Positions 12,472-63,974 of a stretch of DNA of 64,000 nt are shown one piece after another; positions within the stretch are counted from its first letter, which is position 1; each line of letters opens with the position of its first letter. A program made the translations under genes and the position numbers. The stretch is from Streptomyces sp. NBC_01591 (lineage in GTDB: Bacteria > Actinomycetota > Actinomycetes > Streptomycetales > Streptomycetaceae): assembly GCF_035918155.1 (NCBI RefSeq), contig NZ_CP109327.1, forward strand, positions 5,208,001-5,272,000, written 5' to 3'. The notes beneath the pieces are model-generated. The model was not told the origin of the DNA and made no database searches. It saw only the letters and a list, made by a program, of their open reading frames with translations.

Positions 12472-13467
12472 TCAGAGTTTGCGCAGGGACAGCCGCTGGA
12501 CCTTGTGGTCCGGGCCCTTGCGCAGCACCAGGGTGGCACGGCCCCGGGTGGGCGCGACGTTCTCCACCAGATTGGGCTTGTTGATGGTCCGCCACATCGT
12601 CGCCGCGTACTCCATGGCCTCCTCCTCGGAGACCTGGGTGTACTTGCGGAAGTACGAGAACGGGTTCTGGAACGCCGTCGCGCGCAGCTTCCGGAACCGG
12701 TCGAGATACCAGCTCTCGATGTCCTCGGTGCGCGCGTCCACGTACACGCTGAAGTCGAAGTAGTCGGCCAGACCGACCCTGGTCCGGCCGTCCTTGCCGG
12801 GCATCGCGGGCTGCAGCACGTTCAGCCCCTCGACGATCAGGATGTCGGGGCGGCGTACGGTGAGCCGCTGGTCCGGCACGATGTCGTAGATCAGGTGCGA
12901 GTAGACGGGCGCCGTCACCTCGTCCTTGCCGGCCTTGATGTCGGCGACGAAACGGGTCAGGGCGCGCCGGTCGTACGACTCGGGGAACCCCTTGCGCGAC
13001 ATCAGCCCGCGGGTCCGGAGCTCCTTCATCGGCAGCAGGAACCCGTCCGTGGTCACCAGCTCGACGCGCGGATGCTCGGGCCAGCGGGCCAGCAGCGCCT
13101 GGAGGATGCGCGCGGTGGTGGACTTGCCGACCGCGACACTGCCCGCGACGCCTATGACGAACGGGGTGCCGCGCTGCTCGCCGTGGCCGTTGCCCGCGTC
13201 CCCGAGGAAGGTGTTCAGGGCGCCGCGCAGGCCCGAGGTGGCCTGGACGTAGAGGTTGAGGAGCCGGGAGAGCGGCAGGTAGACGTCCCGCACCTCGTCG
13301 AGGTCGATGACGTCCCCGAGCCCGCGCAGCCGCTCCACCTCGTCGGCGGTCAGCGGCAGCGGCGTCTTGTCGCGCAGGGCGCTCCACTCGGCGCGGGACA
13401 GATCGACGTACGGCGTCGCCGCGTGCTCGGCGCGTCGGTGGGTGCTCCGTGGCGGCGAAGTGATCAC
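12472..13467 (-). CDS. coaA: type I pantothenate kinase
   Basis: A 331-residue kinase that phosphorylates pantothenate in the first committed step of CoA synthesis. The P-loop [12 protein letters not shown] lies at about 106-117. Downstream family motifs are [13 protein letters not shown], the GFPESYD segment, YDIVPD, and [12 protein letters not shown]. The length is normal for type I CoaA. The GTG start is close to an AT-richer stretch (ACAATG) that could be a -10 box, so the transcript may be nearly leaderless. The DUF389 gene follows 27 bp later. It gives CoA for carrier-protein loading by the nearby acpS product. Confidence 0.97.
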
Positions 13468-13549
13468 GGGTTCATTGTTGCGGGAGTTTTGACGGAGTGG
13501 AGGGTGGGCTCGGTCACGTAGGGGAGGGCGATAGGGGTACCGCCGCCGT

Positions 13550-14158
13550 TCACGGCTGTGTGCCCACCTTCGTGCCCACCTTCTTCAGCACACAGAGCTT
13601 TCCGCTGTCGGGGTCGCCGATGAACGTCCACAGGACGGCGGAATCGGTCTTCCCCCTGGCCACGAGGCTGCCGCTGACATTGCCGGGGGCGAATTCCGTG
13701 GACAGCTCCGTCGCGCCGTCCAGGGTCGCGTACTCGGCGGACTCCCAGGTGCCGGTCCCGGTCATGGTGGAGGGGAAGCCGAAACCGGAGCTGTCGCCGG
13801 TGCGGGAGTCCGTGTAGTCGCCGCAGATGTTCGTGGCACTGAAGGTGCCGTCCTCGGCGAGGACGAGCCGGCCGCCGTGTTCGTCCTGCCAGGTGCCCCG
13901 CAGCTGGCTCCGCGTCAGCACGAGCGGCGGGCCGTCCGGCTCCGGGGGGACGCTCACGACGCGCAGGAGGAGCAGCAGGACGAACAGCCCCACGGGGACG
14001 AGCACCACGAGGACCGCCCCGATGCACAGCCCCACCACGACGGCGGTCCTGCTCGACATCCCGCGCTCGGGCGGAGGGGGGCCGGGGAACGGCTGGGAGG
14101 GCCGGAGACCCCATGGCAGACGTTGCGACGACGTGACTGGTCCTTCGGCGCGGGACAT
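13550..14158 (-). CDS. membrane-anchored hypothetical protein
   Basis: A 202-residue protein with a Pro-rich cytoplasmic N-terminus ([11 protein letters not shown]), one long span at about 39-66 ([18 protein letters not shown]), and an extracellular domain of about 130 residues. The domain contains [30 protein letters not shown] and three Cys, resembling a small lipocalin-like or beta-sandwich fold in which GTW..EDG repeats are common. The ATG at 14158 follows GTGAGGGCGC. No family was recognised. It lies between coaA and an ECF sigma locus on the same strand and has a perfect 26 bp palindrome 15 bp upstream. Confidence 0.75.
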
Positions 14159-14173
14159 GCGCCCTCACCCCCA

Positions 14174-14199
14174 GATTCTCGGCCGGCCGGCCGAGAATC
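14174..14199. promoter_or_regulatory. perfect 26 bp palindrome
   Basis: GATTCTCGGCCGG (14174-14186) is followed directly by its reverse complement (14187-14199), with no spacer. It lies 15 bp upstream of the 14158 start and 115 bp after the CU044_5270-type gene. It could be an operator or a cruciform-forming site; no U-tract supports a terminator. Confidence 0.55.
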
Positions 14200-14255
14200 G
14201 GTGCCGGTCGGCGGCGACGCCATGATGCACCCGGCGTCACCTGCCGCTGTCGGCG

Positions 14256-14294
14256 GGGGCCGGTGTCCACACCCCTGTGGCGGACACCGGCCCC
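14256..14294 (-). terminator. terminator after the CU044_5270-type gene
   Basis: A 13 bp perfect stem (GGGGCCGGTGTCC, 14256-14268, with 14282-14294) with a 13 nt loop lies 19 bp beyond the stop at 14314. It has no U-run, as is usual for Streptomyces hairpin terminators. Confidence 0.7.
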
Positions 14295-14313
14295 GGTTCA
14301 CGACCCCGAGTGG

Positions 14314-15300
14314 TCAGGGCTTTTCGCCCTTGGCGTCGACGACGGCGGCCTTGATCCGCGCCTCGCTCGTGAGGATCTGTCCCGCCTTGAAGTGGAAGGT
14401 CTGGCGCTCCACCTTGCCGTCGGAGAGCGTGTACGCGTAGTCCTCGGCGACCACGAAACGCAGACCTGCGTAGCTGAAGTCGTGCGGGTCGAGCAGGATC
14501 TCCCGCTGCTCATGGCTGCCGTCCTCCTTCCGGGTGATGGCGATGGCCTCGCGCCCGGCCGCGTCCTTCACCAGGTGGTCGGTGACGTGCACGCCGGGGA
14601 TGGTGGCCATGGCCCGGTAGATCCGGGCGAGGGCGTCCGGTGCGACCGGGTACGCCTCGGCCATCAGCCCGATCGCGCGGAAGCTGTGCTGGGCCTCGGC
14701 CTCGGGCGGGCTCTCGGCCGTGATGCCGGTCGGGTAGAACGAGCGGACCTTCGCCAGCAGCCGCGCCGGGTCGTCGGGCAGCTTGTCGGCGGCCCGGTAG
14801 ACCTGGCGGGCCGTGCGGTAGTCGGAGTCCTTGCCGTTCTTGGCCGCGGCGGAGTTGTCGTACGGAACCCAGCTGTCGGGGTCGTGCGTGGCGGGCCCGA
14901 CGGCCGCGCCGTTCTGGTTGCCCTGCGAGGCCACCTGCGCCGTCCTGGTGTAGATCCACTGGTCGTCGCGCGGCTCCGGCCCGGCCGGCTGCTTCTCCAG
15001 CGCGTCGGCGGCCCGGTTCAGCACCTCGGCCGGGTTGTCCAGCCGCAGGGTGCCGGAGGTGGACGCGGGTCCGGAGCGGGAGGGCGCGGCGGCGTCCCCG
15101 AGCTGGGTACCGAGCACGGCCGCCACGGTGATCGCCGCTGCCGCACCGGCCGCGGCGAACCGCCAGTCGGCCCGCAGCCGGCGGACGCGACGCCCCGAGG
15201 CCGCGGCCTCGGCGAGCCGCTGCCGGCCCGGGGCGAGCCTTCCACGGTCGGGAACGGGCACGTCCGCGCGGAGTTCGCGCAGCTGGGTCATTTCGTCCAT
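14314..15300 (-). CDS. CU044_5270-type membrane protein, putative sigma-factor partner
   Basis: A 328-residue protein. The first 50 residues are cytoplasmic and begin MDEMTQLRELRADVPVPD. One span (about 53-68, AAAGAAAAITVAAVLG) follows, then a 250-residue extracellular domain with WIYTRTAQVA and a lipoprotein-carrier-like region. This matches what NCBI calls the CU044_5270 family, found beside ECF sigma genes. The start overlaps the sigma gene by 13 bp, showing tight coupling. An anti-sigma or surface-sensor role is inferred from position: no zinc-binding HxxxCxxC anti-sigma motif is present in the cytoplasmic part. Confidence 0.8.
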   Translation of the reverse strand: MDEMTQLRELRADVPVPDRGRLAPGRQRLAEAAASGRRVRRLRADWRFAAAGAAAAITVAAVLGTQLGDAAAPSRSGPASTSGTLRLDNPAEVLNRAADALEKQPAGPEPRDDQWIYTRTAQVASQGNQNGAAVGPATHDPDSWVPYDNSAAAKNGKDSDYRTARQVYRAADKLPDDPARLLAKVRSFYPTGITAESPPEAEAQHSFRAIGLMAEAYPVAPDALARIYRAMATIPGVHVTDHLVKDAAGREAIAITRKEDGSHEQREILLDPHDFSYAGLRFVVAEDYAYTLSDGKVERQTFHFKAGQILTSEARIKAAVVDAKGEKP

Positions 15301-15887
15301 GACGGGGTCAGCTCCATGGCGTCGGGCGTGAACGAGGGGTCCATGCGGAGGGCCTCGCGGACCTTGCGGCGGGCGCGGTTGAGCCGCGAACGTACGGTGC
15401 CGAGCGGGATGCCCAGCGCCTCGGCGACCTCCTGGTACCCGAGGTCGGCCCAGGCGACGAGCAGCAGCACATGGCGGTCGCCGGGCGAGAGTGCGGCGAG
15501 CGCCGTCGCCAGCGGTGCCTGGGTGGCGATCCGGTCGTCGGAACGGTCGCTCCAGGACGCGGCCACCGGGTCCTGACCGGTACGGGCCAGGGCCCGCAGC
15601 CCCCGCTCCTCGCTGCGCCGGTGCTTGCCGATGAGGTTCGCCGCGATGCCGTACAGCCAGGGACGGGCGCTGCGCCGGGAGCTGTCGTAGCGGCGCCGGG
15701 AGCGGAAGGCGACGAGGAAGGTCTCCGCCGTGATGTCGTCCGCCGCGCCCTCCCCGAGGCGGCGGGCGGCATAGCGGTGGATGTCCGGTGCGTGACGGTC
15801 GTAGAGCCCGGCGAAGATCTCGGGTTCCTCCAACGACTGCGCGATGACCTCGGCATCGTCGTCGGGGCTGGCCGGCGGTCCGGTCAC
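15288..15887 (-). CDS. ECF RNA polymerase sigma factor
   Basis: A 199-residue ECF sigma factor starting at a GTG. Region 2 (about 22-90) contains FAGLYDRHAPDIHRYAARRL, DDITAETFLVAF and RPWLYGIAANLIGKHRR. Region 4 (about 125-180) has LSPGDRHVLLLVAWADLGYQEVAEAL and GTVRSRLNRARRKV, the helix-turn-helix that reads the -35 box. The gene overlaps its membrane partner downstream, so the pair forms one operon. No promoter resembling an autoregulated ECF site was identified upstream, where a transposase remnant lies. Confidence 0.93.
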   Translation of the reverse strand: MTGPPASPDDDAEVIAQSLEEPEIFAGLYDRHAPDIHRYAARRLGEGAADDITAETFLVAFRSRRRYDSSRRSARPWLYGIAANLIGKHRRSEERGLRALARTGQDPVAASWSDRSDDRIATQAPLATALAALSPGDRHVLLLVAWADLGYQEVAEALGIPLGTVRSRLNRARRKVREALRMDPSFTPDAMELTPSWTK

Positions 15888-15949
15888 ATCGGCTCCTGGG
15901 GCTCGTCGGGTGGGCGTGTCACCCCTTGTTCCCCGCAGGGGCCGGAAAG

Positions 15950-16290
15950 GTTCACAGGGTATGCGGGGCGCTCACCGTTCCTGGCCGGTGTGCGTGAGTG
16001 GGTCCTGGACCCGCTGATGTGTGCTGGGCACATCCCGAACGGTGTCGGATGCACTGGGTCCCCGCTTTCGCGTCCCGTTCGGCGGCACGCCTCTTGGGGT
16101 GTGGTCCGTTGCGGGTGGGCGGTTTCCGTCGCGTCCTCGGGTGTCTGGTGGGGCCCGGGCGGTCCGAAGTGCTGGGCACCCCACACAGAGGTGTAGGCGG
16201 GGTCGACCGCGACAATGGCAAGGCCCTGCTCGGCGGCCATGGAGACCACGTCCTCCCTGCCGCCCCATTCACCTTCTGCGACGATGCGAA
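15950..16290 (-). pseudogene. TnpB/OrfB-like transposase C-terminal remnant
   Basis: On the minus strand an open stretch reads REDVVSMAAEQGLAIVAVDP followed by AYTSVWGAQHF. The VDPAYTS-WGAQH block is characteristic of the C-terminal part of IS200/IS605-type TnpB (OrfB) proteins of Streptomyces, just before the zinc-finger and last RuvC segment. The sequence then becomes low-complexity and lacks the expected Ala/Ile-rich RuvC-III region, and no start or upstream two-thirds of a transposase is present. It is therefore a decayed fragment, not a gene. It occupies most of the 435 bp between the ECF sigma gene and glmS. No terminal repeats were seen. Confidence 0.65.
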
Positions 16291-16322
16291 GAAGAGGGGT
16301 GAGTGACCACGAAAGGAACGGT

Positions 16323-18170
16323 ATGTGCGGAATCGTTGGTTACGTCGGTGGGCAGTCGGCGCAGGACGTCGTCGTCGCGGGTCTCAAGCGCCTTGAGTAC
16401 CGGGGCTACGACTCGGCGGGCATCGCCGTGCTCGCGGACGGCGGTCTGGCCGCCGCCAAGAAGGCCGGAAAGCTCGTCAATCTGGAGAAGGCACTGGTCG
16501 AGGCGCCGCTCCCGGCCGGGACCACCGGGATCGGGCACACCCGCTGGGCCACCCACGGCGCCCCCACCGACACCAACGCCCACCCGCACCTCGACAACGC
16601 GGGCCGCGTCGCCGTCGTGCACAACGGGATCATCGAGAACTTCGCCGCCCTGCGCGCCGAACTCGCCGAGCGCGGCCACGATCTGTCCTCCGAGACCGAC
16701 ACCGAGGTCGTCGCCCATCTGCTCGCCGAGGCGTTCTCCTCCTGCGCCGACCCGGCGGAGGCGATGCGGCAGGTCTGCCGTCGGCTGGAGGGCGCCTTCA
16801 CCCTCGTCGCCGTGCACGCCGACGCGCCCGGCACGGTGGTCGGGGCCCGGCGCAACTCGCCGCTCGTGGTGGGGGTGGGGGAGGGCGAGTCGTTCCTGGC
16901 CTCCGACGTCGCCGCGTTCATCGCGCACACCCGCTCCGCGATCGAGCTGGGGCAGGACCAGGTGGTCGAGCTGCGCCGGGAGGGCGTCACCGTCACCGAC
17001 TTCGACGGGCGGCCCGCCGAAGTCCGCAAGTACCACGTGGACTGGGACGTCTCCGCCGCCGAGAAGGGCGGCCACGACTACTTCATGCTCAAGGAGATCG
17101 CCGAACAGCCGAAGGCCGTCGCCGACACCCTCCTCGGCCGGATCGACGGCGCGGGCTCGCTCCACCTCGACGAGGTACGCATCCCGCCGCACGAGCTGCG
17201 CGAGGTCGACAAGGTCGTCATCGTGGCCTGCGGCACCGCGTTCCACTCCGGGATGATCGCCAAGTACGCCATCGAGCACTGGACCCGCATCCCCTGCGAG
17301 ACCGAGCTGGCCAGCGAGTTCCGCTACCGCGACCCGATCCTCGACCACCGCACCCTCGTCGTCGCGATCTCGCAGTCCGGCGAGACGATGGACACCCTGA
17401 TGGCCCTGCGGCACGCCCGTGAGCAGGGCGCGAAGGTCCTCGCCATCTGCAACACGAACGGCTCCACCATCCCCCGCGAGTCCGACGCCGTGCTCTACAC
17501 GCACGCCGGGCCCGAGGTCGCCGTCGCCTCCACCAAGGCCTTCCTCACCCAGCTGGTCGCCTGCTACCTCGTCGCCCTGTACCTCGGACAGATCCGGGGC
17601 ACGAAGTGGGGCGACGAGATCCGCACCGTCATCCGCCAGCTCTCCGAGATCTCCGGCGCGGTCGAACAGGTCCTGGAGACCATGGAGCCGGTACGCGAAC
17701 TCGCCCGCTCCCTCGCCGGTCACGACACCGTGCTCTTCCTGGGCCGCCATGTCGGCTACCCCGTGGCCCTGGAAGGCGCGTTGAAGCTCAAGGAGCTCGC
17801 GTACATGCACGCCGAGGGCTTTGCCGCCGGTGAGCTCAAGCACGGCCCGATCGCGCTCATCGAGGACGGCCTCCCGGTCGTCGTGGTGGTCCCGTCACCG
17901 CGCGGCCGGTCGTTGCTGCACGACAAGGTCGTGTCGAACATCCAGGAGATCAGGGCCCGCGGTGCCCGCACCATCGTCATCGCCGAGGAGGGCGACGAGG
18001 CGGTCGTCCCGTACGCCGACCACCTGATCCGGATTCCCATTACGCCTACGCTGCTTCAGCCGCTGGTGTCGACCGTGCCGCTGCAGGTCTTCGCCTGCGA
18101 ACTGGCCACGGCCCGCGGCAACGACGTGGACCAGCCGCGCAATCTGGCGAAGTCCGTGACCGTGGAGTAG
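16323..18170 (+). CDS. glmS: glutamine-fructose-6-phosphate aminotransferase (isomerizing)
   Basis: A 615-residue enzyme making glucosamine-6-phosphate from fructose-6-phosphate and glutamine. The ATG at 16323 gives [10 protein letters not shown], placing the catalytic Cys at position 2 as required for glutaminase activity; a longer upstream extension is open but cannot be right for that reason. The GATase-2 domain has [16 protein letters not shown] and HNGIIEN. Two SIS domains follow with [19 protein letters not shown] and [20 protein letters not shown]. The C-terminus ends [17 protein letters not shown] site precedes the start. No glmS ribozyme-like structure was noticed. acpS follows 20 bp later. 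Confidence 0.97.
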
Positions 18171-52709: not shown

Positions 52710-53972
52710 TCACAGCCGGTGTGCGGCCCCCGCCGGGGTCGCGCCACGGGTGTCCAGGAGTAGCTGGGCCTTCACCGCGAGGCCCTGGAGGTCGTACGTC
52801 CGGTGGTGCTGGAGCAGCACCGTGAGGTCGGCGCTCGACGCCGCCTCGTACAGCGAGTCGGCGCGCGGGACCGGGAGCTCGCGCACCCGCCAGTCCAGGA
52901 CGTGGGGGTCGTGGTAGCCGATCTGGGCACCCATGTCCATCAGCCGGCTCGCGATCTCCCGGGCGGGGGACGCCTCCTGGTCGGCGAGGTCGGGCTTGTA
53001 CGTGACCCCGAGCAGCAGCACCCGGGCGCCGCGGACGGACTTGCCGTGTTCGTTCAGCAGGGTGGCACAGCGCTGGATCACGTACTGCGGCATCCGGTCG
53101 TTGATCTCCTGGGCGAGCGAGACCATCCGCAGGGGGTGGCCGGGGGTGCGGCTGTTGTACGGGAGGTAGCCCGGGTCGACGGGTGCGCCGTGGCCGCCGA
53201 CGCCGGGGCCCGGGCGGAACGGCTGGAAGCCGAAGGGCTTGGTCTCGGCGCACCGGATGACGTCCCACAGGTCGACGCCGAGGTCGTGGCAGAGCACCGC
53301 CATCTCGTTGACCAGGGCGATGTTGACGTGCCGGAAGTTGGTCTCCAGGACCTTCGTCATCTCGGCCTCGCGCGGCCCGCGGGCCCGGACGACCTTGTCG
53401 GTGAGCCGGCCGTAGAAGGCGGCGGCCGATTCGGTGCAGGCGGGGGTGAGGCCGCCGATGACCTTGGGGGTGTTGGCGTAGACGTGGGTCCTGTTGCCGG
53501 GGTCGAGGCGGCTGGGGGAGCAGGCCAGGTGGAAGTCGCGGCCGGCGCGCAGGCCCGAGCCCTCTTCGAGCAGCGGCAGCAGGTAGTTCTCGGTGGTGCC
53601 GGGCGGCACGGCCGATTCCAGCAGGACGGTGGTGTGCGGGCGCAGCCGGGCGGCGAGCGCGCGGGCCGCGTCGCCGACGGCGGTGAGGTCGAGGGTGCGG
53701 TCGGCGCCGAGCGGGGTGGGCGCGCAGATCACCGCGGTACGGACCCGGCCCAGTTCGGCCGGGTTGGTGGTGGGCCGGAAGCCTCCCGAGAGCATCCGGC
53801 GGATGTCCGAGGCGGTGAGCGACCCCTCGACGGGGGTGCGGCCCGCGGAGAGTTCCGTGTAGGCGCGTGGGTCGGTGTCGTAGCCGACGGTCTGCACGCC
53901 TGCGGCCACGGCGGCCTGGGCGAGGGGCAGGCCGAGGTGGCCGAGTCCGATGACTGCGAGGTCTGCGGGCAT
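52710..53972 (-). CDS. UDP-glucose/GDP-mannose dehydrogenase-like protein lacking the catalytic Cys
   Basis: A 420-residue protein of the nucleotide-sugar dehydrogenase family, which oxidises UDP-sugars to uronates. The N-terminal NAD domain has AVIGLGHLGLPLAQAAVAAG and ESAVPPGTTE; the middle domain has SPSRLDPGNR and the Lys/Asn pair in MTKVLETNFRHVNIALVNE. The catalytic loop reads PGPGVGGHGAPVDPGYLPY; normal enzymes have GGHC(I/L)PVDP. The Cys at position 262 is Gly (codon GGC). The UDP-binding C-terminal domain is present (LLGVTYKPDLADQEASPARE). Without Cys the second oxidation should fail, so it may be a reductase or non-catalytic. Confidence 0.9.
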   Translation of the reverse strand: MPADLAVIGLGHLGLPLAQAAVAAGVQTVGYDTDPRAYTELSAGRTPVEGSLTASDIRRMLSGGFRPTTNPAELGRVRTAVICAPTPLGADRTLDLTAVGDAARALAARLRPHTTVLLESAVPPGTTENYLLPLLEEGSGLRAGRDFHLACSPSRLDPGNRTHVYANTPKVIGGLTPACTESAAAFYGRLTDKVVRARGPREAEMTKVLETNFRHVNIALVNEMAVLCHDLGVDLWDVIRCAETKPFGFQPFRPGPGVGGHGAPVDPGYLPYNSRTPGHPLRMVSLAQEINDRMPQYVIQRCATLLNEHGKSVRGARVLLLGVTYKPDLADQEASPAREIASRLMDMGAQIGYHDPHVLDWRVRELPVPRADSLYEAASSADLTVLLQHHRTYDLQGLAVKAQLLLDTRGATPAGAAHRL

Positions 53973-54231
53973 GTGGATGGGCCGTCCTTCCCGGTCGGTC
54001 TATGACCATGAGGGCAGAAAGCGCAACCGCTGTGGACAGCGCAATGTCACACTAGGCTTAAATATGACCTATATGTCGCATTACGGGCCTCCTGTCGTCC
54101 TGGTGTTGTCCACAGGCGGTGGCCGAAGTGGTGGACGGCGGACAGAATCGAGAGGTGGGCACGGACCGCCCCGGCCGCCGGGCCGGGTCGCTTCCCGTGC
54201 CGGACCACCCCGATCTACCCGGGAGGCAGCA

Positions 54232-55938
54232 GTGAGGACAGCGACACTGGGACCTGCGGAGCGCGCCGAGGCGCTGGCCGCGATGGCCGAGCGCGAACTG
54301 GACGTGCTGGTCGTGGGAGCGGGCGTGGTCGGCGCCGGTACGGCGCTGGACGCGGCGACGAGAGGACTCTCGACCGGACTGGTCGAGGCCCGCGACTGGG
54401 CGTCGGGCACATCGAGCAGGTCGAGCAAGCTGATCCACGGCGGGCTGCGGTATCTGGAGATGCTCGACTTCGCGCTCGTCCGGGAGGCGCTGAAGGAGCG
54501 CGGGCTGCTCCTGGAGCGGCTGGCCCCGCATCTGGTGAAGCCGGTGCCGTTCCTCTATCCGTTGCAGCACAAGGGCTGGGAGCGGCTCTACGCCGGATCC
54601 GGCGTGGCGCTTTACGACGCCATGTCGGTGTCGTCGGGACACGGCCGCGGCCTGCCCGTGCACCGCCATCTCTCCCGCCGCCATGCCCTGCGCGTCGCCC
54701 CGGCACTGAAGAAGGACGCCCTGGTCGGGGCGTTGCAGTACTACGACGCGCAGATGGACGACGCCCGCTACGTGGCGACCCTGGTGCGCACCGCCGCCGG
54801 ATACGGCGCGCACGTGGCCAACCGTGCGCGGGTGATCGGCTTCCTCCGGGAGGGCGAGCGGGTCGTCGGCGCCCGGGTGGAGGACGTCGAGGCGGGCGGG
54901 GAGTACGAGGTCAGGGCCAAGCAGGTGGTCAACGCGACCGGGGTCTGGACGGACGACACCCAGGCGCTGATCGGGGAGCGCGGACAGTTCCACGTCCGGG
55001 CGTCCAAGGGCATTCACCTGGTCGTTCCCAAGGACCGCATCCACTCATCGACGGGACTGATCCTACGGACGGAGAAGTCCGTCCTCTTCGTCATCCCGTG
55101 GGGACGGCACTGGATCATCGGTACGACGGACACCGACTGGGACCTGGACAAGGCACACCCCGCGGCCTCCAGCGCCGACATCGACTACCTGCTCGAACAC
55201 GTCAACTCGGTCCTGGCCACGCCCCTGAGCCGGGACGACGTCCAGGGCGTCTACGCCGGGCTGCGGCCGCTGCTGGCCGGCGAGTCCGACGCGACCAGCA
55301 AGCTCTCGCGCGAGCACACAGTGGCGCATCCGCTGCCGGGCCTCGTGGTCGTGGCGGGCGGCAAGTACACGACGTACCGGGTGATGGCCAAGGACGCCGT
55401 GGACGAAGCGGTGCACGGCCTCGACCAGCGGGTGGCGGCCTGCGTCACCGAGGAGATCCCGCTGCTGGGCGCGGAGGGATACCCGGCGATGTGGAACGCC
55501 AGGGCGAGGATCGCGGCCAGGTCCGGGCTGCATGTCGCCCGGGTGGAGCACCTGCTCAACCGGTACGGCTCGACGACCGAGCAGATCCTTGAGCTGATCC
55601 TCGGCGATCCGGTGCTGGGGGAGCCGCTGCCCTCGGCGGACGACTACCTGAAGGCCGAGATCGTCTACGCCGCCTCGCACGAGGGGGCCCGCCATCTCGA
55701 CGACGTACTGACCCGCCGGACCCGGATCTCCATCGAGACCTTCGACCGGGGCACGCGCAGTGCCCGGCTCTGCGCGGAACTCATGGCGCCGGTGCTGGGC
55801 TGGGACGAGGGGCAGATCGACCGGGAGGTCGAGCACTACGAGAAGCGGGTGCAGGCGGAGCGGGAGTCGCAGCGGCAGCCGGACGACCTCACGGCGGACG
55901 CGGCGCGGCTCGGGGCTCCGGACATCGTGCCGATCTAG
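54232..55938 (+). CDS. glpD: FAD-dependent glycerol-3-phosphate dehydrogenase
   Basis: A 568-residue enzyme oxidising glycerol-3-phosphate to dihydroxyacetone phosphate and feeding electrons to menaquinone at the membrane. The GTG start has GGGAGG at 54221-54226. It has the FAD motif VLVVGAGVVGAGTALDAATR, the substrate loop SSRSSKLIHGGLRYLEMLDF, then GRHWIIGTTDTDWDLDKAHP and GLRPLLAGESDATSKLSREH. The C-terminal DAO_C domain includes ARLCAELMAPVLGW. It is not adjacent to glpK or glpF. It converges on the serine hydrolase with a 4 bp overlap of the two ends. Confidence 0.96.
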   Translation: MRTATLGPAERAEALAAMAERELDVLVVGAGVVGAGTALDAATRGLSTGLVEARDWASGTSSRSSKLIHGGLRYLEMLDFALVREALKERGLLLERLAPHLVKPVPFLYPLQHKGWERLYAGSGVALYDAMSVSSGHGRGLPVHRHLSRRHALRVAPALKKDALVGALQYYDAQMDDARYVATLVRTAAGYGAHVANRARVIGFLREGERVVGARVEDVEAGGEYEVRAKQVVNATGVWTDDTQALIGERGQFHVRASKGIHLVVPKDRIHSSTGLILRTEKSVLFVIPWGRHWIIGTTDTDWDLDKAHPAASSADIDYLLEHVNSVLATPLSRDDVQGVYAGLRPLLAGESDATSKLSREHTVAHPLPGLVVVAGGKYTTYRVMAKDAVDEAVHGLDQRVAACVTEEIPLLGAEGYPAMWNARARIAARSGLHVARVEHLLNRYGSTTEQILELILGDPVLGEPLPSADDYLKAEIVYAASHEGARHLDDVLTRRTRISIETFDRGTRSARLCAELMAPVLGWDEGQIDREVEHYEKRVQAERESQRQPDDLTADAARLGAPDIVPI

Positions 55939-57023
55939 GAGCTCCGGGACTTCGGCGCCCCGGGGCAGAACTCCGCGTCGAGCAGTGCGGGTTCGAGGGT
56001 CGCCGAGTCGGCCAGGGTGTCCGTGTCGATGCGGTACGTCAGGGTATGCCGGCCGTCGCGCGTAGTGGCGGTACGGACGTAACTGCCCGCGATGTGGCCG
56101 TTGTGCCCCCAGACGGTGGTGCCGCAGGAGAGCTTCTGCGGATAGATGCCCAGGCCGTAGACGCCGTGCGTGGCCCGGGTGTTCAGCAGGATCGCCAGCT
56201 GGGCGGGCGCGAGGAGACGGCCGCCCAGCAGGGCCGCGTAGAAGCGGTTCAGATCGTCGAGCGTGGAGATCAGCTCGCCGGCCGCGCCCGCCGTGCGCGG
56301 GTCCAGCGCGGTGACATCGCGCAGGCTGCCGTCGGCCGGATCGCGGGTGTAGGCACGGCCGTGCGGGGAGGGCAGATCGGTACGGGCGCCAGGGAGGGAG
56401 GTGCCCGTGAGGCGGAGGGGGATGATGACGCGATTGCGGATCTCGGTGGCGTAGCCGTGTCCGGTGACCCGTTGAACGACGAGTCCGAGTACGGCGTAAT
56501 TGGTGTTGGAGTAGGCGTAGCGGCCGGGGGCGCCCGTCGGGCGGTGGGCCAGGGCGACACGGACCGCAGCGGTGGCGGAGAGGGGGTGGGCGGATGGATC
56601 GGCGGTGTAGTCGTAGAGGCCGCTGGTGTGGCTGAGCAGGGCGCGCAGGGTGATGCGGTGGCCGTCGTTGCCGTTGCCGCGCACCAGCCCCGGCAGCAGC
56701 CGCTCGACCGGGTCCGACAGGTGCAGCCTCCGTTCCCGGGCGAGTTGGAGCACGACCGTGGCGACGAAGGTCTTGGTGACGCTGCCCGCCCGGAACCGGT
56801 CCGCCCGTCGGATACCGGGACCTGTCGAGCGGTAGGTGTCGTACGGTGCGGACGAGGCACGACGGGCCAGCAGCGCCGCCGTTGGAGCACCGCCCTCGGC
56901 GACGAGCCGGGGAAGGTAGGTGGCTGCGGGGGTGAGGTGTGGTTCGCTGGGCAGGGTTGCTGTTCCCAGGCCGAACAGCGCCAGCACCAACAGGGCGACG
57001 AGCATTGCCCTGAGTATCGGCAT
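55935..57023 (-). CDS. secreted beta-lactamase-fold serine hydrolase
   Basis: A 362-residue protein. An N-terminal hydrophobic segment (about 5-24) with MPILRAMLVALLVLALFGLG is a signal or anchor. The active-site SxxK is SVTKTF near residue 80; the second motif is YSNTNY and the third HNG in WGHNGHIAGSY. This is a D-alanyl-D-alanine carboxypeptidase/esterase (class C-like) set. It probably acts outside the cell on peptidoglycan or an ester. It is convergent with glpD and divergent from the first kinase gene, 120 bp away. Confidence 0.9.
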   Translation of the reverse strand: MPILRAMLVALLVLALFGLGTATLPSEPHLTPAATYLPRLVAEGGAPTAALLARRASSAPYDTYRSTGPGIRRADRFRAGSVTKTFVATVVLQLARERRLHLSDPVERLLPGLVRGNGNDGHRITLRALLSHTSGLYDYTADPSAHPLSATAAVRVALAHRPTGAPGRYAYSNTNYAVLGLVVQRVTGHGYATEIRNRVIIPLRLTGTSLPGARTDLPSPHGRAYTRDPADGSLRDVTALDPRTAGAAGELISTLDDLNRFYAALLGGRLLAPAQLAILLNTRATHGVYGLGIYPQKLSCGTTVWGHNGHIAGSYVRTATTRDGRHTLTYRIDTDTLADSATLEPALLDAEFCPGAPKSRSS

Positions 57024-57143: not shown

Positions 57144-59144
57144 ATGTCGGAGGCGGAGCAGGCACGGGAGCCCCAACGGGACAAGGACGGACGTCTCCTT
57201 GCGGGGCGCTACCGGCTCGGGGAGGTGCTCGGCCGGGGCGGTATGGGCACGGTCTGGCGTGCCGTCGACGAGACGCTGGGCCGCACGGTCGCGGTCAAGG
57301 AACTGCGGTTCCCTTCGGCCATCGACGACGACGAGAAGCGCCGGCTCATCACGCGCACGCTGCGCGAGGCGAAGGCGATCGCCAGGATCCGCAACAACGG
57401 CGCGGTGACGGTCTACGACGTGGTCGACGAGGACGACCGGCCGTGGATCGTGATGGAGCTCATCGAGGGCAAGTCCCTCGCCGAAGCCGTGCGCGAGGAC
57501 GGCGTGCTGACGCCGAAGCGCGCCGCCGAAGTCGGCCTCGCCATCCTCGACGTGCTGCGCTCGGCGCACCGCGAGGGCATCCTGCACCGCGATGTGAAGC
57601 CGTCCAACGTGCTGATCGCCGAGGACGGCCGGGTCGTGCTGACCGACTTCGGCATCGCTCAGGTCGAGGGCGACCCGTCGGTCACCTCGACGGGCATGCT
57701 CGTCGGCGCCCCCTCGTACATCTCTCCCGAGCGTGCCCGCGGCCACAAGCCGGGGCCGCCTGCCGACCTCTGGTCGCTCGGCGGACTGCTGTACGCCAGC
57801 GTCGAGGGCTCCCCGCCGTACGACAAGGGGTCGGCCATCGCCACCCTGACCGCGGTGATGACCGAACCGCTCGGCCCGCCGAAGAACGCCGGTCCGCTGG
57901 AGGAGGTCATCTATGGCCTGCTCGCCAAGGACCCCGAGCAGCGGCTCGACGAAGCGGGTGCCCGCGCGCTGCTCAACGACGTGATCCACGCTCCCGAGAA
58001 GCCGGACCCGGTGGTGCCCCCGCCCGCCGACGCCACCCAGGTCATGGCGCTGCCCAAGGCTCCGGCCGAACCCCGTGCCAAAGCGACGCCGAAGCCCGCG
58101 GAACAGGGCGAGGGCACGCGCGACCGGCTGCGGGGCGCACTGCGCTCCGTACGGAACGCGAAGGCGGCACCGGCCGTCGGGGCGGGCGCCGCCGCGGCCT
58201 CGACCACAGCGCCGCCCCCGCCCTCGGCGCCCCCGTCGGGTTCCCCCTCGGCCGGTGACGCGGGCGCCAAGCCCGCCAAGCCCGCGACTGCTGCGGCCAC
58301 CGCGGCCGTACCGCCGCCCCGCCCGGCCACATCACCGACCGCCCCGCCCCGGGCATCCATCACGGACGTGGTGCCGCGCCGCACCCTGGCGATCATCGCG
58401 GCGGTGATCGTGCTCGCCGTGATCGGCACGGTCCTCGCGCTCACGGTCGGCGGCGGCGACAAGAACAACGCGGGCAACGAAGGCGGTAAGGGCGACAAGT
58501 CCACCTCCGCCGGGCCCTCGACGGCGACCGGCGGCTCCGCGGAGACCGACAGCGGCAGTAGCAGCGGCAAGGACCAGGGCAAGGACCAGGACCAGAACGG
58601 CAACCAGGGTCAGGGTCAGGACGAGGGCAAGGGCAAGACCGACAAGGAGTCGGGCGGCTCGAAGGGCGACAAGCCGGAGGACGCCCTGCCCGCCGGATTC
58701 AAGCTGGTCACGAACAAGCGATTCCACTTCTCGATGGCCATGCCCGAGAAGTTCCGCTTCGACCGGACGTCAGGCATCGACTCCGGCGCCATCTACAACG
58801 TCGACGGCGGCTTCCCCCGTATCCAGGTCGACTACACCGATTCGCCCGGTGGTGACGCCGCCGCGGCCTGGAACGCGGCGAAGGCCGCCGTCGCGGCCAG
58901 CAGCAACGGCTACCACCATCTCGGCATAAACAAGGTCCAGTACAACGGCTATCCGTCCGTCGCCGACTGGCAGTTCGAGCGCACCCAGCACGGCCAGCGG
59001 GTCCATGTACTCAACCGGGGCTTCAAGGTCGACGGCAAGCACGGCTACGCGATCATGATCAGCTGCAAGGCCGGTGAGTGGGACAGCAAGGAGTGCCGGA
59101 CGCTGCGCAAGACCGCGTTCGACACGTTCAAGCCCATCGACTGA
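57144..59144 (+). CDS. membrane Ser/Thr protein kinase with extracellular domain
   Basis: A 666-residue PknB-type kinase. The kinase domain (about 24-280) has the Gly loop LGRGGMGTVWRA, the ATP-binding Lys at about 52 in VAVKEL, the catalytic Asp at about 150 in HRDVKPSN, the DFG at 168-170, and YISPERARG. An Ala/Pro-rich linker leads to one span (about 413-435). Outside is a Ser/Lys/Gln-rich stalk (GKDQGKDQDQNGNQGQGQDE) and a C-terminal domain of about 150 residues with FHFSMAMPEKFRFDRTSG that resembles those of the next two genes. It appears to phosphorylate proteins on Ser/Thr in response to an extracellular cue. It lies at the start of a kinase cluster known in other Streptomyces. Confidence 0.95.
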   Translation: MSEAEQAREPQRDKDGRLLAGRYRLGEVLGRGGMGTVWRAVDETLGRTVAVKELRFPSAIDDDEKRRLITRTLREAKAIARIRNNGAVTVYDVVDEDDRPWIVMELIEGKSLAEAVREDGVLTPKRAAEVGLAILDVLRSAHREGILHRDVKPSNVLIAEDGRVVLTDFGIAQVEGDPSVTSTGMLVGAPSYISPERARGHKPGPPADLWSLGGLLYASVEGSPPYDKGSAIATLTAVMTEPLGPPKNAGPLEEVIYGLLAKDPEQRLDEAGARALLNDVIHAPEKPDPVVPPPADATQVMALPKAPAEPRAKATPKPAEQGEGTRDRLRGALRSVRNAKAAPAVGAGAAAASTTAPPPPSAPPSGSPSAGDAGAKPAKPATAAATAAVPPPRPATSPTAPPRASITDVVPRRTLAIIAAVIVLAVIGTVLALTVGGGDKNNAGNEGGKGDKSTSAGPSTATGGSAETDSGSSSGKDQGKDQDQNGNQGQGQDEGKGKTDKESGGSKGDKPEDALPAGFKLVTNKRFHFSMAMPEKFRFDRTSGIDSGAIYNVDGGFPRIQVDYTDSPGGDAAAAWNAAKAAVAASSNGYHHLGINKVQYNGYPSVADWQFERTQHGQRVHVLNRGFKVDGKHGYAIMISCKAGEWDSKECRTLRKTAFDTFKPID

Positions 59145-59347: not shown

Positions 59348-62182
59348 GTGGACGACTACGCGGGTCGGGTGCTTGCCGACCGCTACCGCCTTCCGCTGTC
59401 TCCGACCGATGAGTATGAAGCGGTCGAAACCCGGGCGTTCGATACCTACAGCGGACAGGAAGTCCGGGTCCGGCAGGTGCCGTTGCCCGAGGTCGTGGAC
59501 GCCGAGGTGCTCTACGCCGACGATCCGGCCCCAATGGCCCGCCGGGACACCGGACGGGCCGTGCGCGCGCCCGCGGACCCGGCGGTCCGGCGCGCCGTGG
59601 AGGCGGCGCAGGCGGCGGCCCAGGTGCCCGACCACCCCAGGCTCGACCAGGTCTTCGACGTGTTCGCCGAGGCGGGATCGCTCTGGATCGTGAGCGAACT
59701 CGTCGCGGCCCGCCCGCTCGCCTCCCTGCTCGCGGAACGACCGCTCAGTCCCTTCCGGGCCGCCGAGATCGGCTCCGACGTGCTGACCGCGCTGCGGGTG
59801 CTGCACGCCCATGGCTGGACCCACCGGAACATCACCGTCCGCACGGTGCTGATCTGTGACGACGGCCGTGTCGTGCTGACCGGCCTGGCGGACGGGGCGG
59901 CGGAGGAGGCCCTCTGCGGGTATGTACCGACACCGCAGCTCGACGAGGACGAGGACGAGAACGAGGGCGGATACGGGTACGAGGGCGGTTACGGCGACGA
60001 GGGCGGCTTCGGTCGCCCGGCGGTCGGTTCGGGCCCTGCCGGGGCGTACGCGCCGCCTCCGCCCGCTATACCGCCCATGCCGTCCGTGCCCGCCCCTCCG
60101 GCCGAGGTACCGGCCTCACGCGGCCCGGCGGCGATAGAGGCGGGCCGGGCGACCAGCGACCCCCACCATGACGATCCGTACGACGACCCGCACGCCGACG
60201 ACCCGTACGACGACGATCCGTACGCCGACGACCCGCACGCCGACGACCCGTACGACGACGGCGATCACCCCGACGGCCCCCACGGCGGCACGGGAGATAC
60301 CGCGCAGCTGCGGGCCGAGCGCGCCGGAGCCATCGCCACACACCGCGCGGGCGCCCGCGCCGCACGCGTCAGCGAGGACCGGCGCCGCACCGGGGCGGGC
60401 GAGGGGGAGGGCACCGGCAGCCTGCCGGTCCAGCGTTCCGCACGGCCGGACGGCACGGACCCGTCCGACCCGGACCACAGCCACCCGCAGCAGGCCGCTC
60501 CCCGAGGCCACGCCACCGACGATCCGTACACCAAGGACCTGTACGCCCAAGACCCGTACGCCGAGGACCCGGACACCGCGGGCCCCGACGACGACGACGA
60601 GGACGGCCGGCCGCCCGCGCGGCGGCTGTATCTCACCGGCTCCTGGAGCGACGGCCCCGGATCCGGGCGCCCCGTCCCCGCCGGAGGTTCCGGCGAGGAG
60701 GCCCTGCGCGCCGACGCCCGGCGCCACGGCGACCTTCCGGCACTGCCCGCGCACCGGCCCGCCCGGCAGCAACAGCCGGGCGGCTGGGACGAGCCGGCCG
60801 CGAGCGACCGTACAGGCTCCGCCTACCACGGCCCCGCCACCCCGCTCGCCGCCGAGCGCGCCCGGCAGGCCCGGATCGCCGTGGTCGGCGCGGTCACCGA
60901 GCGCTGGGCGCCCGAGCAGGCCGGCCCCGTCCACGAGAACTGGCGGCTGGCACCGCCGATCGGACCCGCCACCGACCTCTGGGCACTGGGCGCGCTGCTC
61001 TACCGCGCCGTCCAGGGCCACGCCCCCTACCCCGAGGAGAACGCGGCCGAGCTCGTCCAGATGGTGTGCGGGGAGCCGCCCGCCTTCGCCGAGGAGTGCG
61101 GCCCGCTGCGCCCCGTCGTCGAGTCCCTGCTGCGCCAGGACCCCACCGAGCGGCCGGACTTCGAGGAGCTGAGCGGCTGGCTGCGCTCCCTGGTGCGGTC
61201 GGCGCCCGAGCCCGAGGCCGGCCTGGACGTCGTACCCCTGCCGTCCGCCGACAGCGCCCGGCTGCCCGTCGTACGCCGCAGGGGCGAGCTGGTCCGCAGA
61301 CGACGCGGCAGGAGCGCGGCCCACGGCCGTCACCGCCACACCAAGGACAAGCCCGACCGGCAGGACAGGCCCAGGGCGGAGAAGGCCCCCCGGCCCTCCC
61401 AGGCCCCCCGGCCGCCGCGTGAGCCCAAGGGTCCCAAGGCGTTGCGCACCCCGCCCCGCCCCCGGGACGGCGAGCGGCGGGCGCCGCGGCGGCTCGGGCG
61501 GCTGCTCCTGGTGCTGATCCTGCTGGCCCTCGTCGCGGCCATCGCGTACGCCGTGATGTTCATGCCCAAGGCGGACAGCGAATCGGGCACCCGCTCCACG
61601 GGCCCGGCGTCGTCGACGTCCGGTTCACCGGAGCCCGGCAGCGGCGAGTCCGATGGCGGCGACTCCGGCGACCCGACGCGGTCCCCCGGTGGGCAGCAGC
61701 CGCAGACCAGCCGCTCCGCCGTGGCGCTCGCCCCCGGCTACACCCTGCGCAAGGACCAGGAGGGCTTCGAGGTCGGTGTGCTCAAGGGCTGGCAGCGCAG
61801 CCCCGCCAACGCGGACCGTCAGATCCGCTACGGCAGCGACGGCTTCAGTCTGCTGATCGTCCCGGGCCGCGACACCGTCAAGGACAACGGCGACGACCCG
61901 CTGGTCTACCAGGCCGACAAGGAACTGGAGTTGCAGCCGTTCCGCGACTCCACCTGGTCGGGGTCGAGCGGGCTGCGCCGGATCGACGTCGGGCGACAGG
62001 CCATGGCGGAGGGCCAGTTCACCTGGCAGGACGCATCGGGGCGCGAGGTGTACGCCCGCAACCTCGTGATGGTCGTGGACGGCCGCTACCACGTCATCCA
62101 GGTCATCGGCCCGGAGAACCGGCGCGACAAGGTATCGGACATCTACGAACAAGCCATCGCCTCCTACCGGGTGACGTCCTGA
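59348..62182 (+). CDS. membrane pseudokinase with long acidic insert
   Basis: A 944-residue protein of the same architecture as its neighbours. The kinase fold begins at about 12 and is interrupted after about 190 by roughly 300 residues of low complexity: Glu/Asp/Gly-rich (DEDEDENEGGYGYEGGYGDE) and then DDPYD-type repeats (275-304). The C-lobe resumes near 505 (RWAPEQAGP, DLWALGALLYRAVQGHAPYP). The Gly loop is not recognisable, VAVK is VRVRQ (Lys to Arg, about 42), HRD is HRN (Asp to Asn, 161), and DFG reads GLA (179-181). Catalysis should be absent. One span (about 715-739) and an extracellular domain like the neighbours follow. Confidence 0.9.
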   Translation: MDDYAGRVLADRYRLPLSPTDEYEAVETRAFDTYSGQEVRVRQVPLPEVVDAEVLYADDPAPMARRDTGRAVRAPADPAVRRAVEAAQAAAQVPDHPRLDQVFDVFAEAGSLWIVSELVAARPLASLLAERPLSPFRAAEIGSDVLTALRVLHAHGWTHRNITVRTVLICDDGRVVLTGLADGAAEEALCGYVPTPQLDEDEDENEGGYGYEGGYGDEGGFGRPAVGSGPAGAYAPPPPAIPPMPSVPAPPAEVPASRGPAAIEAGRATSDPHHDDPYDDPHADDPYDDDPYADDPHADDPYDDGDHPDGPHGGTGDTAQLRAERAGAIATHRAGARAARVSEDRRRTGAGEGEGTGSLPVQRSARPDGTDPSDPDHSHPQQAAPRGHATDDPYTKDLYAQDPYAEDPDTAGPDDDDEDGRPPARRLYLTGSWSDGPGSGRPVPAGGSGEEALRADARRHGDLPALPAHRPARQQQPGGWDEPAASDRTGSAYHGPATPLAAERARQARIAVVGAVTERWAPEQAGPVHENWRLAPPIGPATDLWALGALLYRAVQGHAPYPEENAAELVQMVCGEPPAFAEECGPLRPVVESLLRQDPTERPDFEELSGWLRSLVRSAPEPEAGLDVVPLPSADSARLPVVRRRGELVRRRRGRSAAHGRHRHTKDKPDRQDRPRAEKAPRPSQAPRPPREPKGPKALRTPPRPRDGERRAPRRLGRLLLVLILLALVAAIAYAVMFMPKADSESGTRSTGPASSTSGSPEPGSGESDGGDSGDPTRSPGGQQPQTSRSAVALAPGYTLRKDQEGFEVGVLKGWQRSPANADRQIRYGSDGFSLLIVPGRDTVKDNGDDPLVYQADKELELQPFRDSTWSGSSGLRRIDVGRQAMAEGQFTWQDASGREVYARNLVMVVDGRYHVIQVIGPENRRDKVSDIYEQAIASYRVTS
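60170..60259 (+). repeat. six tandem 15 bp units coding for DDPYD-type repeats
   Basis: Ninety bases encode six five-residue units (DDPYD, DPHAD, DPYDD, DPYAD, DPHAD, DPYDD) in the pseudokinase insert. They are similar but not identical and make a negatively charged, Pro-kinked stretch. Confidence 0.9.
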
Positions 62183-62312: not shown

Positions 62313-63974
62313 GTGGATCGATCACAGGGAACGGACGCGGGACTGGTGCTGGCCGGCAGGTACCGGCTGGGTGAAGTCCTCGGGCGCGGCGGCATGGGCA
62401 AGGTCTGGCGCGCCCACGACGAGGTGCTGCACCGCACGGTCGCGGTCAAGGAGTTGACCGCAGGCCTGTACGTCGCCGAGGCCGACCGGATCGTGCTGCA
62501 CGCCCGCACGCAGAAGGAGGCCCGCGCGGCAGCCCGGATCACGCACCCGGGCGTCGTCACCGTGCACGACGTGATCGAGTACGACAACCGGCCCTGGATC
62601 GTCATGCAGTACGTCGACGGCCCGTCCCTCGCCGACGCGGCCAAGGAGTCCGGCGAGGTCGAGCCGCGCGAGGCCGCCAGGATCGGCCTCCATGTGCTGA
62701 GCGCCCTGCGTGCCGCGCACGGGGCGGGGGTCCTGCACCGCGACGTGAAGCCCGGCAACGTGCTCCTCGCCAAGGACGGCCAGGTGCTGCTCACCGACTT
62801 CGGGATCGCCGCCATCGAGGGCGACTCGACCATCACCAGGACCGGTGAACTGGTCGGTTCCATCGACTATCTGGCGCCCGAACGGGTACGTGGCGGCGAC
62901 CCGGGACCGGCCTCCGACCTGTGGTCGCTCGGCGCCACGCTCTACACCGCGGTCGAGGGACGCTCGCCGTTCCGCCGTACGTCCCCGATCTCCACCATGC
63001 AGGCCGTCGTCGCCGAGGAACCCCCGCCGCCCGGCCGGGCGGGCCCGCTGGCCCCCGTGATCACCGCGCTGCTCCGCAAGGAGCCGGACGAGCGTCCGTC
63101 GGCCGCGGAGACGGAACGGATGCTGCTGGACGCCATGGAGGGCCGCAAGCCCGTGGCCGCGCAGGCGTTCGTGCCGACGCAGAGCGTCCCCGACGAGGTC
63201 CTGCGCTCGCTGGGCCAGGACGGCCCGTCCGGGTCGTCCGGCCCCGGCACCACCCAACTGCCCTACCCGGCCACCGCCGCACCGGCCCCGACGACCCGGC
63301 GCAGCCGCGGCCGCTGGCGCACCGTGGTCCTGGTCATCGCGGCCGCGGCGCTGGTCGGCGGTGGCGCGGGAATCGCCGCGATGAAGTTCGGGGACCGGAC
63401 GCACGACACCACCGGGTCCGACAGAACGGGCGCGCACGCGCCCGCCGACCCCGGCAAGCCCGGCGCCAGGACCTCGCCGTCGGTGAAGCCCGACGCGACG
63501 GTGAAGGACGTGCCCCAGGGCTGGAAGCGGGTGGACGACCCCGAGGGCTTCAGCCTGACCGTGCCCGAGGGCTGGGAGCGCCGGGCGGACGGCAACCAGA
63601 TCGACTACACCCCGGACAACGGCGTGCACTACATCCGGATCAGCGTCGACCCGGCGCCCGACTTCGAGAACCCGTACATGCACATGGTGACAAGCCTGGA
63701 GCCCCAGCTTGCCAAACGGCTGCCCGGCTACGAGCGCAAGACCCTGCACTCAAACACGTACCGGGACCGGCCGGGCGCGCTCTGGGAGTTCACCTGGACC
63801 GAGACCAAGGACCATCCGGGCCCGCGCCACGCGATCGACCAGATGTACTTCGGCGAGGAGGGCGGTCCGGAGTACGCGCTGTACATGACGGGCCCCGCGG
63901 ACGACTGGGACACGACCCGGGCGCAGTTCGACACGATGCTGCGCGGATGGCGTGCACCGGACAGCTCCGGCTGA
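62313..63974 (+). CDS. membrane Ser/Thr protein kinase with extracellular domain
   Basis: A 553-residue PknB-type kinase starting at a GTG after GGGGCGGGGATAC. The Gly loop LGRGGMGKVWRA, the Lys at about 46 in VAVKEL, the catalytic Asp at about 144 in HRDVKPGN and DFG at 162-164 are all intact, so it should be active. After SIDYLAPERV and the C-lobe, an Ala/Pro-rich linker leads to one span (about 334-356). The C-terminal 170 residues outside the cell read FSLTVPEGWERRADGNQIDY and WEFTWTETKDHPG, resembling the ends of the two preceding proteins. The three probably derive from one ancestor by duplication. Confidence 0.95.
   Translation: MDRSQGTDAGLVLAGRYRLGEVLGRGGMGKVWRAHDEVLHRTVAVKELTAGLYVAEADRIVLHARTQKEARAAARITHPGVVTVHDVIEYDNRPWIVMQYVDGPSLADAAKESGEVEPREAARIGLHVLSALRAAHGAGVLHRDVKPGNVLLAKDGQVLLTDFGIAAIEGDSTITRTGELVGSIDYLAPERVRGGDPGPASDLWSLGATLYTAVEGRSPFRRTSPISTMQAVVAEEPPPPGRAGPLAPVITALLRKEPDERPSAAETERMLLDAMEGRKPVAAQAFVPTQSVPDEVLRSLGQDGPSGSSGPGTTQLPYPATAAPAPTTRRSRGRWRTVVLVIAAAALVGGGAGIAAMKFGDRTHDTTGSDRTGAHAPADPGKPGARTSPSVKPDATVKDVPQGWKRVDDPEGFSLTVPEGWERRADGNQIDYTPDNGVHYIRISVDPAPDFENPYMHMVTSLEPQLAKRLPGYERKTLHSNTYRDRPGALWEFTWTETKDHPGPRHAIDQMYFGEEGGPEYALYMTGPADDWDTTRAQFDTMLRGWRAPDSSG

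Follow-up and report, generated by a model that had tools for sequence, protein, structure and literature searches.

A probable ActPs2-type pseudokinase kept among active kinases at the SCO4776 position of a Streptomyces sporulation kinase cluster

What keeps a kinase-like gene without catalytic residues in place among working kinases? The question is raised by a stretch of 64,000 nucleotides from Streptomyces sp. NBC_01591 (contig NZ_CP109327.1, positions 5,208,001 to 5,272,000, forward strand; hereafter the window), in which one gene, here called B, lies between two intact kinase genes, A and C. A first-pass annotation of the window, made from the letters alone, had read B as a pseudokinase with a long insert and a scaffold or dominant-partner role. 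Our preferred reading, to which we give a probability of about 0.5, is that B encodes a protein retained without catalytic function, anchored in the membrane and serving the kinases of its cluster as a partner or docking platform. The kinase features of the locus are, in window coordinates:

59348..62182, + strand: pseudokinase gene B, 944 amino acids, GTG start, ActPs2-type, positional orthologue of SCO4776
59348..59803, + strand: N-lobe to alpha-E of B, residues 1-152, without a glycine-rich loop
59822..59830, + strand: HRN (residues 159-161) where HRD is expected
59882..59890, + strand: GLA (residues 179-181) where DFG is expected
60854..60919, + strand: restructured activation segment RxRxxR...G..TERWAPEQ (residues 503-524), conserved in the family
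57144..59144, + strand: active kinase A, at the PkaH/SCO4775 position
62313..63974, + strand: active kinase C, at the PkaD/SCO4777 position

Aligned to A and C, which are intact at VAVK, HRD and DFG, B has lost all three residues that mark an active Hanks-type Ser/Thr kinase: Arg42 (codon 59471-59473) replaces the beta3 Lys, N161 the HRD Asp and G179 the DFG Asp. The first-pass annotation had claimed the same replacements by Arg, Asn and Gly, and intact catalytic residues in the flanking genes; it was right in both, as in its coordinates for B (59348-62182). In addition, the catalytic-loop Lys and Asn have become Thr163 and Thr166 and the Gly-rich loop is gone. DFG appears to be substituted by GLA, at a place where the alignment cannot separate substitution from deletion. 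What B retains is the alpha-C Glu85, the APE Glu, the C-lobe DxW Asp and a late Arg602, and the H and N of its HxN motif are almost invariant. Pfam recovers the kinase domain as two pieces with a long insert between them, at 48 bits versus 152 for A and 157 for C. The beta3-alphaC segment is also longer: from R42 to E85 it counts 43 residues, 21 more than the 22 of both A and C. In the AlphaFold model of the whole protein the kinase domain came out poorly; modelling therefore turned to a relative with a short loop (P0190), and the active site was judged on sequence and secondary structure. The predicted fold is of the PknA/PknB type with a remodelled activation segment. On these residues, the identification of the gene B product as a pseudokinase is firmly supported.

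A recent lesion, which the first-pass annotation had named as the outcome that would undo its claim, or an assembly error could produce the same picture in a single genome; both are rejected, given that the losses are common to all sampled orthologues, the GTG start is shared and the gene is nearly universal. A scan of contigs from named genomes provided the best 80 of 318 confirmed loci, all from Streptomyces. Twelve were dropped, 11 at contig ends (including L086) and L070 for a frameshift-like break, which leaves 69 proteins covering the catalytic loop, the window included; all counts out of 69 or 68 refer to this set. Asn161 and Gly-Leu-Ala are found in 69/69 and Arg42 in 68/69 (Thr in one), and the beta3-alphaC length has a median of 47 (range 39-78). 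The open reading frame of B is intact, and GTG stands at the aligned position in 68/68 complete Streptomyces orthologues. Among 150 Streptomyces genomes, 139 have gene B, with no internal stop in any match and a single match in 138 of the 139. The other 11 are fragmented assemblies of 480 to 1770 contigs; some equally fragmented assemblies do carry the gene.

Across the family, gene B was found in 33 of 41 genomes and 15 of 17 genera (E 1e-20 or better), and the Lys, HRD Asp and DFG Asp each occur in 0/32 of the loci outside the window. The catalytic residues are lost in 68/68 other Streptomyces orthologues and in 28/28 loci of other genera, where the HRD Asp is replaced by Asn in 27 and Ala in one, and the DFG Asp by Gly in all 28. 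By this distribution, the catalytic losses are old rather than a recent lesion. A class-wide set of 118 genomes gave 13 matches, eight from Streptomyces and five from others (best E 2.5e-22 to 4.9e-19); one of these Streptomyces genomes (G033) has a second, weaker match, and of the five other matches the two that were inspected (L151, L152) have intact HRD and DFG motifs, as normal kinases do.

As a side observation, a contig ends inside gene B in 11 of the 80 Streptomyces loci (L015, L020, L021, L029, L030, L038, L052, L057, L079, L085 and L086). The repetitive, GC-rich insert thus seems to break assemblies, and absence calls from draft genomes are unsafe.

Bacterial pseudokinases with such losses have been described as the family ActPs2. 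In the portions of O'Boyle et al. 2025 (PMC12599244) drawn on here, its members carry Arg for the beta3 Lys, HRN and a deletion in the DFG motif; 32 residues are inserted between beta3 and alphaC, the activation loop is extended by 250 residues in about 90% of proteins, and a transmembrane helix lies towards the C-terminus; the function is given as unknown, and those portions likewise give no genomic context. Arg42, HRN, the lost DFG and a predicted transmembrane helix after the kinase domain (715-737) are all present in B, as are a beta3-alphaC insertion, shorter in the window (21 versus about 32 residues), and an activation-loop extension of the described size (326 residues versus 15 in A and C). 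Judged by these features, gene B fits the ActPs2 family. It differs from the published description in three respects: the long extension is here confined largely to Streptomyces, neither the insert nor the extracellular domain is present in a divergent lineage, and a conserved island lies within the insert. Streptomyces is not mentioned in the main text of PMC12599244.

The arginine at the beta3 position, present in 68/69 Streptomyces proteins but only 13/28 loci of other genera, bears on a different explanation: that B is an enzyme of altered chemistry in which Arg42 and a second Arg hold ATP for a transferase reaction of a different kind, as SelO and SidJ do. PMC12599244 presents an AlphaFold3 model of an ActPs2 protein with ATP and a single Mg bound, in which R42 and R177 contact the phosphate, and the near-invariance of the HxN His and Asn is in keeping with this. 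However, the metal-binding Asp, the catalytic-loop Asn and the glycine loop are all lost, and Arg174, the best match to R177, occurs in 15/28 other-genus loci. The two-arginine idea suits Streptomyces without being general to other genera, and we consider such an enzyme decidedly improbable.

The position of the gene links it to published genetics. SCO4775-4779 of S. coelicolor are PkaH, SCO4776, PkaD, PkaI and PkaJ, described as sporulation kinases in the sections of Ladwig et al. 2015 (PMC4416010) used here, and by that gene order B is likewise the second kinase-like gene, between the PkaH and PkaD positions. According to the same sections, SCO4776 is transcribed all through the life cycle, and an extra copy gives aberrant, vancomycin-sensitive spores, as with the active kinases. 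They count SCO4776 as a eukaryotic-type Ser/Thr protein kinase (eSTPK) and read the dosage effect as excess phosphorylation; the word pseudokinase is absent from PMC4416010. SCO4776 is also among the four cluster members detected by proteomics, as stated in the part of PMC9739823 concerned. In the literature search results that were viewed, no link between ActPs2 and SCO4776 was found, and the papers using SCO numbers and those on ActPs2 do not overlap.

Hence, one of five 'kinases' with an extra-copy effect attributed to excess phosphorylation very probably cannot phosphorylate, as far as its residues tell. For a protein without catalytic residues, binding is the easiest explanation of dosage sensitivity, and a dead kinase kept in nearly all relatives among working spore-wall kinases probably helps or holds those kinases instead of acting as an enzyme. 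The scaffold or dominant-partner role of the first-pass annotation is plausible, given that a second SCO4776 copy disturbs sporulation as extra copies of the active kinases do (PMC4416010, same sections). We envisage B as held in the membrane, where it would partner the sporulation kinases next to it (PkaH, PkaD and others) without catalysing anything itself, with the C-lobe and the restructured activation segment as its putative binding face. Through its extracellular domain it would sense the type of envelope cue that its active relatives also sense, and in Streptomyces the long disordered loop may serve as a flexible arm presenting a conserved Arg/Ala-rich linear motif. The tie between ActPs2 and SCO4776 places a family without known function in a cluster for which mutants and their phenotypes have been published, which makes its role directly testable in laboratory Streptomyces.

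Selection on the proposed binding face can be read from ratios of nonsynonymous to synonymous substitution rates (dN/dS):

60878..61207, + strand: P+1 region and C-lobe of B (residues 511-620), lowest dN/dS among the large regions compared between the three genes

At 0.049, dN/dS in the C-lobe of B indicates purifying selection more stringent than in active A and C, the catalytic-loop stretch of B stands at 0.033, and C-lobe and activation segment together form the most conserved portion of the protein. These values bear most directly on the possibility that B is a functionless, decaying duplicate under relaxed selection. The loss of all three catalytic motifs, an insert dN/dS of about 0.71 (on an unsure alignment) and a possible loss in one genome (G022, see below) would suit decay. 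The low ratios, the lack of internal stops, the single match per genome and the near-universal presence in Streptomyces do not, and we reject a pseudogene on dN/dS and regard decay as very improbable.

The insert itself comprises three features:

59924..60832, + strand: long disordered activation-loop insert, residues 193-495, about 300 residues, a Streptomyces trait in the sample
60170..60260, + strand: DDPYx/DDPHx tandem units with a 15-nt period, lineage-specific
60308..60370, + strand: conserved Arg/Ala-rich island within the variable insert, residues 321-341

The first-pass annotation had described an acidic activation-loop insert of about 300 residues with five-residue tandem units. Its length and place are borne out by the 326 residues between 181 and 506. 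Its acidity holds for the window (20% Asp/Glu) but not as a rule, because so strong an acidity is atypical: the window ranks 7th of 69 in acid fraction, and 8/69 Streptomyces proteins have an insert with a positive net charge. Comparison of the orthologues thus leaves acidity as a tendency only, with length and charge both variable. The 193-495 stretch measures 126 to 469 residues in the 69 Streptomyces proteins (median 295). The shortest Streptomyces counterpart of 181-506 has 157 residues, and in other genera this stretch has 14-68 residues in 27/28 loci and 148 in one (L108). On these lengths, the insert is the youngest part of the protein and a lineage-specific addition. We disfavour the acidic insert as the functional core, given its variable charge and the absence of a long insert from 27/28 other-genus loci. 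The tandem units are real: Tandem Repeats Finder reports 5.3 copies of 15 nt at 60181-60260, and the window insert has seven DDP[YH] words, a number reached by 0/5000 shuffles of the insert and compared with at most four in each of the 68 other orthologues.

AlphaFold finds no order in the insert, in which Trp433 is kept in 62/69 and Trp480 in 65/69 Streptomyces proteins. The island, with consensus RAARAGAIAAYRAGARAAARV, is found by its motif pattern in 66/69, and Arg322, Arg325, Ile329, Tyr332 (His in the window), Arg333, Arg337 and Arg340 are each present in 65 to 67 of the 69. Its dN/dS among close relatives is 0.165, and the next-best place in the window's own genome has E 2.4. An amphipathic helix was considered for the island and dropped: its moment of 0.44 is reached by 13% of shuffles and so does not argue for a helix. 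A stronger version of the preferred reading would have this obligate dead kinase set the output of the cluster, with the island RAARAGAIAAYRAGARAAARV docking on, or mimicking a substrate of, the active sporulation kinases, ActPs2 proteins holding and tuning PkaH/PkaD-type kinases at the membrane, and the SCO4776 dosage phenotype being stoichiometric rather than catalytic; we consider this combination speculative and rather unlikely.

A disordered loop also invites comparison with MviN, which is a MurJ-type multi-pass membrane protein. In the portions of PMC12599244 concerned, the tail of MviN (ActPs3, M. tuberculosis) is phosphorylated by PknB and recruits FhaA, and its activation loop is shortened, in contrast to the extended one of B. 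Both are actinobacterial membrane pseudokinases linked to cell-wall synthesis and to an active Ser/Thr protein kinase. By this precedent, the neighbouring kinases would phosphorylate B, and its phosphorylated tail or loop would recruit a third protein, such as an FHA-domain or cell-wall protein, without the kinases being modulated. B offers its long disordered loop, a basic juxtamembrane stretch and a Ser/Thr498 beside the activation helix, conserved in 67/69 Streptomyces proteins and 13/17 ungapped other-genus loci. On the other side, the long loop is missing from 27/28 other-genus loci, and the passages of the literature examined mention no phosphosite on SCO4776 or B. Recruitment of this kind is possible, though on the unlikely side.

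Beyond the kinase domain, B continues across the membrane:

61490..61558, + strand: single hydrophobic helix, residues 715-737, read from its sequence as transmembrane
61736..62179, + strand: extracellular domain, residues 797-944, PsbP/Mog1/LpqN fold

The extracellular domain is modelled by AlphaFold with a predicted local distance difference test score mostly above 90. Foldseek matches it to CyanoP, PsbP, DcrB, LpqN and Apa at E 2.6e-8 to 1.3e-4 (CyanoP 2.6e-8, LpqN 8.4e-5), structures that we take to share the Mog1/PsbP/LpqN fold. The likeness to LpqN, CyanoP, PsbP and DcrB is one of fold, at about 15% identity, from which the ligand cannot be inferred. The first-pass annotation had proposed a domain shared by all three genes. 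This stands for B and C, given that a profile of the B domain finds that of C at E 5.9e-7; the profile does not detect A of the window directly (E 2.6), and the connection is only indirect, with the domain of A matching those of C-type kinases from outside Streptomyces, such as L112_C at E 1.5e-8. Such a domain could also make B an independent envelope sensor, or a cell-wall protein (SSSC) scaffold, that sits in the kinase cluster without acting through the kinases. The fold and, in the sections of PMC4416010 used, the spore-wall setting of the locus agree with this, but the 13 loci of the divergent lineage without an extracellular domain still keep the pseudokinase beside active kinases, and we hold the idea to be improbable.

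Several observations weigh against the preferred reading of B as a partner of the cluster kinases. Its equivalence to SCO4776 is that of a positional orthologue, known from gene order, and the literature examined, in the parts used, reports no interaction of B or SCO4776 with any kinase; the two-hybrid contacts given in those parts of PMC4416010 are of PkaI with itself, PkaA and PkaD. The N-lobe evolves faster in B, with dN/dS of 0.160 versus 0.082 in A and 0.068 in C. At the back-to-back dimer interface of PknB, where Leu33 is the N-lobe anchor, the Leu is Ser in B and Ser/Thr in 96/97 sequences, the Arg10 equivalent is retained in 97/97 and the Asp76 equivalent in 84/84 outside the divergent lineage and 2/13 within it, and A and C retain all three positions. 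With the Leu anchor lost and Arg10 and Asp76 largely kept, back-to-back pairing would be weakened though possible; the standard kinase dimer might not form, and a different interface is as likely. The extracellular domain is absent from 13/28 other-genus loci, a second, divergent lineage that also lacks the long insert and includes Streptacidiphilus, Phaeacidiphilus and Mangrovactinospora (in a 14th locus, L107, the extracellular part is cut by the contig); the domain is thus not essential to the role of the protein there. Finally, some loci do without the gene. Eight of the 41 family genomes have no match, and in six of these, from two genera (L140-L145), four kinases come after glpD, each with HRD and DFG intact, and a pseudokinase is absent. 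A seventh genome belongs to these two genera as well. In the eighth, from another genus (G022, 410 contigs; L146, 5898-12000), glpD is followed by an A-type kinase 81% identical to A, and the next 4.3 kb of the continuing contig hold no pseudokinase or other kinase-like match. Loss of the remaining cluster or misassembly may explain this absence, since another genome of that genus has gene B.

Both arrangements survive at this locus: two genera have four kinases, all active, and most of the remaining sampled genera of the family have a dead kinase beside active ones. All-active loci in two genera of the same family imply that catalysis was lost, or gene B gained, within the family, and L140-L145 are useful for comparison. 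In a tree of 74 kinase domains, the B sequences form one group (Shimodaira-Hasegawa-like approximate likelihood-ratio test 100). Tests of the parentage of B, with three long-branch rows (L121_B, L121_C and L115_B) left out of the tree, do not choose between A, C and any of the positions 1 to 4 in the all-active arrays: B and K1 already lie on one side of a branch with support 74, and approximately unbiased test p values for other placements are 0.17 to 0.55. A profile built from the extracellular domains of nine B proteins ranks position-2 kinases from one all-active genus 1st to 3rd (E 6e-15, 7e-14 and 4e-11). Their counterparts in the other genus come 7th to 9th, with E 7e-8 to 2e-7, and are outranked by two position-1 kinases and a C-type kinase. 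Locus position and this profile weakly suggest that B descended from an active position-2 kinase.

Two further genes lie upstream of kinase A:

53950..55938, + strand: glpD-like open reading frame that marks the locus; its true start probably lies further inside
55935-57023, - strand: beta-lactamase/DD-peptidase-family gene, between glpD and kinase A

In S. coelicolor, glpD presumably adjoins SCO4775. It is accompanied by guaB in 5/6 of the all-active loci, and in L144 two more intact kinases lie beyond its other side on the opposite strand (13337-17577). A relative of the beta-lactamase/DD-peptidase-family gene is present in 28 of the 80 Streptomyces loci; some of the 80 are too short to extend to that place. 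The B gene of L070 (5908-9134) and the A gene of L017 (2503-4625) look split between frames, probably through sequencing errors. Three loci (L041, L056 and L070) are without a C-type kinase downstream of B though the contig continues, and the number of further kinases downstream of C differs between species (L009-L088).

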